Positions 16,022-30,736 of a stretch of DNA of 39,866 nucleotides are shown here, one piece after another (position 1 is the first letter of the stretch; every line of letters begins with the position of its first letter). The notes under the pieces were generated by a model. The model did no database searches, had not been told where the DNA came from, and saw only the letters and a list, made by a program, of their open reading frames with translations. The stretch comes from Desulfobacteraceae bacterium (GTDB lineage Bacteria > Desulfobacterota > Desulfobacteria > Desulfobacterales > JAABSP01). The DNA lies in NCBI GenBank assembly GCA_011390065.1, contig JAABTD010000012.1:1-39866 (forward strand), in the 5' to 3' direction. The position numbers were made by a program, and so were the translations under genes.

Positions 16022-17431
16022 ATGGAGATAAGGGGCAATCATTTTCTGGTGGCGGGTCTCGGAGTTTCCGGCCTCGCCGTGACGCGGTTTCTGACGACCC
16101 GGGGGGGCAGGGTGACGGTGACCGATCGGCGCGGGGAGGACGAGATCGGCGACGCGGTAAGGGAAATCCGGGCAATGGGCGCCGCGACCGCTTTAGGCGG
16201 CCATGATCCCGGCATTTTGGGCAACGCCGGGGCTGTCAGCGGCGTTATCCTCAGCCCCGGCGTTCCCCACACCCTTCCTTTTCTGGCGTCGGCCCGGGAC
16301 CGGGGCATCGAAGTGATGGGTGAAATCGAGCTGGCGGCCCGTTTTATTGAGACCCCTCTGGCGGCGGTGACCGGCACCAACGGAAAGACCACCACCACCG
16401 AATGGATCGGCGAGATGTTGCGTCGTTCCGGCAGAACCGTCTTCGTGGGGGGCAACATCGGCACACCTCTGATCGGTTTCGCCGATGCGGGGCAGCCGGC
16501 TGGAATAGCCGTGGTGGAGTTGAGTTCTTTTCAGCTGGACACCATCCAGCGATTTCGGCCCAACGTGGCGGTGCTGCTCAACATTACCGCGGATCATCTG
16601 GATCGGTATCCCGACATGGCGGCTTACGCAAGATCCAAGGCCCGGATCTTTGAAAACCAACAGGAAGGAGACGCGGCCGTGCTGAATGGAACCGACGCCC
16701 GGACCGCCGCACTGGCCGAGGTTATCCCCGCCGGGGTGGATCGGATGTTTTTCCGGTCCGACGGGAGCGCGGCGGATGCCGGCATTCGGTCAGGGGCGAA
16801 AAATGCGGCGTCCCTGCTCGTGATTCGGCGGCCGGACGGCGAGGAGTTGACATTTGACCTGTCCCGGTCAGGGGCGAAAAATGCGGCGCCCCTGCCCCCG
16901 GGCCGCCACAACCTGGAAAATCTGGCAGCGGCCGCCCTGGCCGCCCTCTGCATGGGGGCCGTTCCTTCCGGCATCCAGGCCGCCATCAATGAATTCAAAG
17001 CGCCTGACCACCGGTTGACGCATGTGGCGACCATCGACGGGGTCCGGTTTTACGACGATTCCAAGGCCACCAACGTGGATGCCGTGGCGCGGGCGCTGGA
17101 CGCCTTTGATGCGCCGATCCTGTTGATCATGGGAGGGCGGACCAAAGGGGGCGGATTCCGAACCTTGGCCGATGCCGTCCGGAAAAAGGTCAAAGGACTC
17201 TTTCTCATGGGGGAGGCCGCGGATGTCTTGAAGGGCGATCTGGGCGACCGGGTTCCCACCCGGATGACGGAATCCATGGACGAGGCGGTTCAAGAGGCGT
17301 TCAGGACGGCCGATCCGGGAGACGTGGTGCTGCTTTCACCGGCCTGCGCCAGCTTCGACATGTACGCCTCCTATGCCCAGCGGGGAGAGGATTTCCGCCG
17401 ATGCGTTATAGAACAAACACCGACCCTTTAA
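16022..17431 (+). CDS. murD: UDP-MurNAc-L-Ala:D-Glu ligase MurD, carrying two in-frame repeat-derived peptides
   Basis: A 469-residue cytoplasmic ligase adding D-glutamate to UDP-MurNAc-L-Ala. The N-terminal nucleotide-binding domain starts FLVAGLGVSGLAVTRFL. The ATP loop TGTNGKTTTT is at 117-126, then ELSSFQLD and NITADHLDRY. The C-terminal domain has FYDDSKATNVDA and LLSPACASFDMY. Oddly, residues 256-264 (RSGAKNAAS) and 282-290 (RSGAKNAAP) are a duplicated peptide, encoded by two nearly identical palindromic DNA copies. They fall between the central domain and GRHNLENL, a variable hairpin region, so the enzyme is probably still functional. Starts 4 bases after the mraY stop. Confidence 0.95.
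   Translation: MEIRGNHFLVAGLGVSGLAVTRFLTTRGGRVTVTDRRGEDEIGDAVREIRAMGAATALGGHDPGILGNAGAVSGVILSPGVPHTLPFLASARDRGIEVMGEIELAARFIETPLAAVTGTNGKTTTTEWIGEMLRRSGRTVFVGGNIGTPLIGFADAGQPAGIAVVELSSFQLDTIQRFRPNVAVLLNITADHLDRYPDMAAYARSKARIFENQQEGDAAVLNGTDARTAALAEVIPAGVDRMFFRSDGSAADAGIRSGAKNAASLLVIRRPDGEELTFDLSRSGAKNAAPLPPGRHNLENLAAAALAALCMGAVPSGIQAAINEFKAPDHRLTHVATIDGVRFYDDSKATNVDAVARALDAFDAPILLIMGGRTKGGGFRTLADAVRKKVKGLFLMGEAADVLKGDLGDRVPTRMTESMDEAVQEAFRTADPGDVVLLSPACASFDMYASYAQRGEDFRRCVIEQTPTL
16787..16817 (+). repeat. Palindromic repeat inside murD, copy 1
   Basis: Thirty-one bases from CGGTCAGGGGCG to CCCTGC, identical to the copy at 16865 except for T instead of C at 16811. The outer bases CAGGGGCG and the downstream CGCCCCTG (one mismatch in this copy) form inverted arms. 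Read in frame it gives RSGAKNAASL. Confidence 0.75.
16865..16895 (+). repeat. Palindromic repeat inside murD, copy 2
   Basis: Second copy, exactly 78 bases (26 codons) after the first and in the same frame, giving RSGAKNAAPL. The arms CAGGGGCG and CGCCCCTG are perfect inverted copies here. The palindrome at 30708-30736 carries the same arm sequence. Confidence 0.78.
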
Positions 17432-30707: not shown

Positions 30708-30736
30708 TGCAGGGGCGAAAATCTTTCGCCCCTGCA
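30708..30736. repeat. Perfect palindromic element related to the murD inserts
   Basis: Thirteen-base arms, TGCAGGGGCGAAA and TTTCGCCCCTGCA, with a 3-base loop ATC. The arms share the CAGGGGCGAAAA / CGCCCCTG core of the two copies inside murD, so this is probably a dispersed genomic element. For the minus-strand Crp gene, which ends 64 bases earlier on that strand, it could also slow or end transcription. Confidence 0.75.

Follow-up and report, generated by a model that had tools for sequence, protein, structure and literature searches.

REPs are defined as short (14–40 nt), palindromic and highly similar sequences that occur in many copies (PMC12306157). Those of the GTAG type are described as palindromes of 20–40 bp starting with GTAG or GCAG, which are present in tens of copies, usually sit close to 3′ ends where the adjoining ORFs are unidirectional or convergent, and provide the TAG that serves as the stop of neighbouring genes (Di Nocera et al. 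2013, PMC3733652). The same study describes intragenic GTAG and CGTC REPs in several species, with double insertions in uvrA and uvrB, and counts the intragenic repeats of R. conorii, RPE-4 and RPE-6, among the CGTC-tagged REPs. Rickettsia palindromic elements (RPEs), about 150 bp long (PMC10969869), are described as palindromic coding repeats that have entered housekeeping genes in frame, as a rule in segments without structure (PMC10969869, PMC2996958). PARCELs are tandem 75-nt repeats of palindromic coding DNA that are tied to membrane proteins, with patchy occurrence and probably horizontal spread (PMC2996958). In RAYT/TnpA-REP systems, GTAG-headed hairpins, among which the group 3 REPs are perfect palindromes (PMC2817692, PMC8266576), are mobilised by a single-strand transposase (PMC8266576), and two REPs are said to flank every RAYT gene (PMC2817692).

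Here we describe a palindrome of a Desulfobacteraceae bacterium that shares features with each of these systems. Like the GTAG REPs as described, it has GTAG (or GYAG) at one end, occurs in tens of copies near the 3′ ends of unidirectional or convergent genes, lends its TAG to neighbours as a stop, and is found in frame inside some genes, in one of them twice. It differs from the published REPs in two respects. The GTAG tag of those elements is described as unpaired, giving a head and a tail (PMC3733652), whereas here both ends are complementary and GTAG pairs with CTAC, making the full 28 bp a palindrome; and an element-flanked tyrosine transposase gene was not found in the stretches fetched from two genomes, in contrast to the flanking REPs described for RAYT genes. 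With RPEs it shares in-frame insertion into housekeeping genes at loop positions, as judged from a MurD model and from smc and DUF748 alignments, but the descriptions of RPEs set it apart by size (28 bp here) and sequence, and its in-gene copies are a small minority. It is palindromic coding DNA of patchy occurrence like PARCEL, without the tandem 75-nt arrangement and the tie to membrane proteins given for that repeat. The first-pass annotation of this DNA had likened the element to RPEs; the comparison stands as far as an in-frame coding palindrome goes, but intragenic REPs generally are the closer published parallel (PMC3733652). The insertion of palindromic repeats in frame into genes is thus an already published phenomenon, of which this family is a further case. 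When the literature was searched for the string GTAGGGGCG, the titles among the matches listed all concerned unrelated subjects, and a search on palindromic or repetitive extragenic sequences in Desulfobacterota gave no title on this element among the matches listed.

Two palindromic inserts in murD

The window analysed, 39,866 nucleotides long, is a contig (C181) of a genome of 5.04 Mb in 464 contigs, and bears the dcw cluster. Its murD gene (16022..17431, + strand) is an open frame for a UDP-N-acetylmuramoylalanine--D-glutamate ligase of 469 residues, which matched MurD chains in the PDB with a best E of 4e-68. Two copies of the sequence CGGTCAGGGGCGAAAAATGCGGCG[T/C]CCCTGC, 31 bases each, lie within it on the + strand at 16787..16817 and 16865..16895, differing by the single T/C and offset by 78 bases, or 26 codons. 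They encode R256-SGAKNAAS (R256–S264) and R282-SGAKNAAP (R282–P290), and both coordinates and translations agree with those first recorded. A 26-base core, allowing up to 3 mismatches, matched the window twice, at this pair, and gave no match in 100 shuffles. Eight of the nine codons compared between the copies encode the same residue, and at each of these eight positions the two copies use an identical codon, for which the chance is about 7.5e-4 given how ten genes of the cluster use their codons. The likeness of the two copies is therefore one of DNA. That two alike peptides evolved in MurD at the protein level and came to match a palindrome by chance is scarcely credible. In favour of such an origin, the peptide has a loop-like character and the loop that holds the first site varies in length. 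Against it speak the identical codons, the shuffles, a genome-wide palindrome family, five further copies that are read in this frame in unrelated genes, and the smc copy. Protein-driven convergence was rejected on the shuffles, the genome-wide count and the codon identity.

MurD was compared with that of relatives, as the first-pass annotation had proposed. The MurD of a sister species, the only other genome of the genus searched, lacks both; it is 72% identical over residues 146–467, the part that lies on the sister's contig, and reads DLSGVKLAGRHN where this MurD reads DLSRSGAKNAAPLPPGRHN. MurD was matched in 37 relatives, 29 of which were fetched and aligned. The second insert, which adds 7 codons relative to these proteins, is absent from 28 of the 29, the remaining one (L127), read on the wrong strand, being uninformative. 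It is also absent from six more MurDs of a second collection, one of which, L134, very likely comes from the contig that also appears as L106. The first insert adds a net of about 6 codons relative to the sister species, whose loop is about 6 residues shorter. This loop varies in length among relatives, and the empty-site evidence is therefore weaker at the first site than at the second. No relative was seen to encode the same peptides with unrelated DNA.

A MurD structure was predicted with AlphaFold2 from a 7-sequence alignment (mean pLDDT 84). The model has strands at 253–257, 264–269 and 275–279, and 264–279 forms a predicted β-hairpin. The first insert makes the turn before it, between strands 253–257 and 264–269, and the second makes the loop after it, overlapping residues 285–293, the only stretch of three or more residues with pLDDT below 50. 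In the predicted structure the inserts thus flank a β-hairpin, one at each end, which bears out the earlier placement of the two sites. MurD carrying the inserts presumably retains its activity.

The palindrome family and its setting between genes

The family has the consensus GTAGGGGCGAAAAATTTTTCGCCCCTAC, with T or C at position 2, A or G at position 27 and a variable centre. The hits underlying it, 51 from this genome and 36 from the sister, include a few chance matches, and G1, T/C2, A3 and G4 occur in most of both sets. A free-standing copy, which had been noted as matching the arms of the murD inserts, does so; it lies between genes at 30709..30735, with no strand assigned, and measures 27 bp, or 29 bp with one more outer pair. 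It is better preserved than the murD copies. Measured against the majority consensus, the latter are changed at 7 and 8 of the 28 positions, loop included, and against its GCAG...CTGC form at 5 and 6; they begin with TCAG, and their symmetric centre is lost. Single-strand RNA folds of the free-standing copy (z −7.3) and of a copy in smc (z −5.8) are better than those of shuffles. The fold of murD copy 2 (−25.2 kcal/mol, z −2.0) is somewhat better, and that of copy 1 (z −0.9, with 33 of 200 shuffles equally good) is no better. The mismatches to the consensus and the poor fold of copy 1 weaken the reading of the murD inserts as REP copies. We nevertheless consider it likely that both are diverged copies of a dispersed, REP-like palindrome, which would have been mobilised in trans and copied locally within murD.

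The palindrome is present in tens of copies in both species. The pattern AGGGGCG-N3-25-CGCCCCT gave 50 exact-arm matches in this genome, one place being matched twice, against 2 for a reversed control, so that in size (28 bp), palindromy, similarity and copy number the family agrees with the broad REP definition. The stricter pattern AGGGGCGAAA-N2-8-TTTCGCCCCT gave 39 matches here, 31 in the sister and none for the control, and a covariance model run on both strands gave at least 136 and at least 107 matches, respectively. These counts, together with in-frame copies in other genes, uphold the earlier suggestion of a dispersed element that lands in genes in frame; it is not confined to murD. 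Beyond the two species its occurrence is patchy. The strict palindrome was present in 10 of 58 genomes searched, its own included, and was not found in two other genomes of the same family searched, one of which is 73% complete. A sample of the class, all from the same order, had the palindrome in 19 of 291 genomes and 15 of 123 genera, again with its own included, and the control was 0 throughout. At least 14 sites are common to both species at matching positions; much of the family is therefore old and may no longer move.

To determine gene context, genes were called by codon usage with a simple caller for which the dcw genes served as training set. The 66 matches in this genome comprised 42 between unidirectional genes, 15 between convergent genes, none between divergent genes, 8 inside called genes and 1 at a contig edge; the corresponding figures for the 41 matches of the sister were 24, 13, 0, 3 and 1. 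With 57 of 66 and 37 of 41 matches called intergenic, the family is mostly extragenic, as broad REPs are. Copies lie mostly tens of bases from a gene 3′ end. The nearest called 3′ end was at a median of 28 bases in this genome (46 of 57 within 60) and 16 bases in the sister (33 of 37 within 60), and the outer TAG of the element is the stop codon of the called neighbour at 18 intergenic loci (9/66 and 9/41). A role at transcript ends is possible for copies outside genes. Four of the matches in coding DNA were set aside by judgement as chance matches (L062 4734, L091 3055 and window 13615; L197 451 in the sister), after which 4 of 63 and 2 of 40 lie inside genes, with L061, of uncertain gene start, as a further candidate. 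Some of the 63 (L046, L067, L071, L072 and L091 1599) are either doubtful or members of a related sub-family.

The palindrome might instead be the binding site of a DNA-binding or chromosome-organising protein, not mobile and kept by selection even inside genes. Conservation between the species fits such a site: over 17 paired copies, one pair of which (the second L060 copy) was matched to a wrong partner, 455 of 476 element bases agree, and the changes sit at the centre (positions 13–16 and 18) and the outer ends (2, 27 and 28). The 20 bases on each side agree at 443 of 680 positions, an underestimate as the comparison was ungapped. The smc copy, too, has stayed unchanged in both species while the gene around it diverged. 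We regard a binding site as improbable all the same, given the patchy presence of the palindrome, the occurrence of tandem part-copies and broken copies, and the murD copies that have no symmetric centre. The absence of any placement between divergent called genes argues against an operator as the main role. A REP-like dispersed palindrome remains the preferred reading.

Several irregular forms were observed beside the regular copies. Tandem part-copies, repeats of TACGCCCCTACA, start at L083 1615, and a broken copy lies beside a whole one at L049 up to 1666; these suggest decay and local re-copying of the palindrome. A related palindrome, GTAGGGGCGAACCTTGTGTTCGCCC, forms near-identical pairs 49 bp apart at two places of this genome (L046 1529–1606 and L071 935–1012), with a similar pair at a third (L067 1516–1585), and looks like a REP dimer sub-family of this genome.

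Copies inside other genes and their reading frame

A further case lies in a DUF748/AsmA-type protein, where the ten residues VGAGAKDVSP are inserted in this genome and are absent from the sister and from five other relatives aligned, while the DNA around the site is identical to that of the sister at 422 of 470 bases (90%). Related proteins thus lack the insert here as they do at the second murD site. The gene smc carries a copy at the same place in both species (L081 521–548; L185 1573–1600 in the sister), at about residue 174 in the hinge domain (Pfam 99–216). All 28 element bases are identical between the two, against 390 of 470 over the whole stretch compared, and 17 other relatives aligned at the site have gaps of 3–7 residues. 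In the sister, a protein with an M28-peptidase domain contains an in-frame AGAKNVSPL; a homologue was found neither in this genome nor in three other relatives at E 1e-10, and this copy therefore has no empty site for comparison. Three genes of other genera also carry copies. An AMP-binding ligase reads NVGAKNFSPL inside its AMP-binding domain, with no clean empty site in an alignment to solved ligases; a chemotaxis-type protein reads AGAKNFSPL in its N-terminal stretch; and a PMT_2 protein has the element at its C-terminus. Where the consensus peptide GAKNFSPL has phenylalanine, murD, the DUF748 protein and the M28 protein (window, L080 and L182) have A or V instead.

Altogether the palindrome lies inside at least seven genes of five genomes, as 8 copies, all in the frame G-A-K-[ND]-x-x-P-L (GAKxxxPL). 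In the GTAG form of the element one of the three frames contains TAG and two are open, and the use of the same open frame in 7 of 7 genes has a two-sided probability of about 0.016, over ORFs that were scanned non-exhaustively. This is suggestive of a real bias towards one frame, and is not proof of it. The Pfam scan covered 20 ORFs over copies in this genome and 10 in the sister. In 11 other genomes 41 copies were viewed and 10 of the 28 covering ORFs listed were scanned; 3 copies were accepted as in-gene, of which one lies at a C-terminus and another in an N-terminal stretch. L249, a Pfam-hit ORF in the other open frame, was not counted, its start more likely falling after the copy, and L082, in the same frame as murD but outside the Pfam scan, was left out by eye for the same reason. 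The net inserts measure 18, 21 and 30 bases, compared with 28 bp for the element, which shows that insertion cost some target bases or that the frame was restored by later indels.

The present and empty sites in two species of one genus provide examples in which a probably selfish palindrome adds loops to MurD, the SMC hinge and other proteins. With them one can test whether palindromic repeats make loops neutrally and whether one fixed reading frame is preferred. There is a slim chance that the family is something more particular, namely a perfect-palindrome REP-like family without an element-flanked transposase, patchy across the order, always read in the GAKxxxPL frame within genes and re-copied within the essential murD, whose sequence may have been shaped for tolerance as a protein loop.

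Proposed mobilisation and probable origin of the murD pair

The most likely path, as we reconstruct it, is that a REP-like hairpin was moved in trans by a Y1/HUH transposase and that protein-breaking insertions were then lost. The palindrome would spread as a hairpin element that is not autonomous and depends on a single-strand transposase of the HUH/Y1 type, as in the model described for TnpA-REP systems; this enzyme may by now be lost or unrecognised. Arrivals in genes would be random, and the survivors would be those in frame, free of stops and in surface loops. Y1 transposase genes (PF01797) were found twice in this genome and three times in the sister. No whole palindrome copy lies beside these 5 genes in the stretches fetched, which is not an exhaustive survey as the contigs are short, and the sole trace near them is one 9-base half-match (sister L285 778). 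A third genome, G031, has 5 palindrome copies and no Y1 match. Mobilisation by Y1 is weakened as an explanation because no Y1 gene could be tied to the element and because G031 holds its copies without one.

The first-pass annotation took the palindrome to have been inserted twice into murD. The two copies are there, but two separate arrivals are probably not what produced them. Their common loop, AAAAATGCGG, occurs in none of the other element copies tabulated. A search for the TGNNGCG-loop form gave one exact match in the genome, murD copy 2, copy 1 being one base off; such an exact-match search would miss diverged forms. Since this shared loop has no exact counterpart elsewhere in the genome, one of the murD copies probably derives from the other. 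Two independent insertions from a donor copy with a GCGG loop, now lost or diverged, would be the less probable course, though one with some weight: the outer flanks of the two sites are unrelated to each other and homologous to the uninterrupted sequence of the sister, and double insertions are on record for uvrA and uvrB. Besides the loop, the extent of the shared block speaks against it, as the block also takes in the three bases before the element, CGG, that are native to the second site. A tandem duplication of a 78-bp unit was also considered, and was rejected, as the two copies are followed by different flanks, each of them homologous to the sister.

On the favoured course of copying within murD, one palindrome would first have entered the second site, taking the place of a few loop bases ahead of the GRHN motif. 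A 31-base tract of this copy, which includes the three native flank bases, may then have been transferred 78 bases upstream, to the opposite end of the hairpin, through gene conversion or template switching. The stretches that separate and follow the copies are homologous to the uninterrupted sequence of the sister. The CGG of the second site is the codon for R in a DLSR motif that also occurs in several relatives, and this hints that the second-site copy is the older and that the tract was copied from there to the first site, a direction that rests on these three bases.
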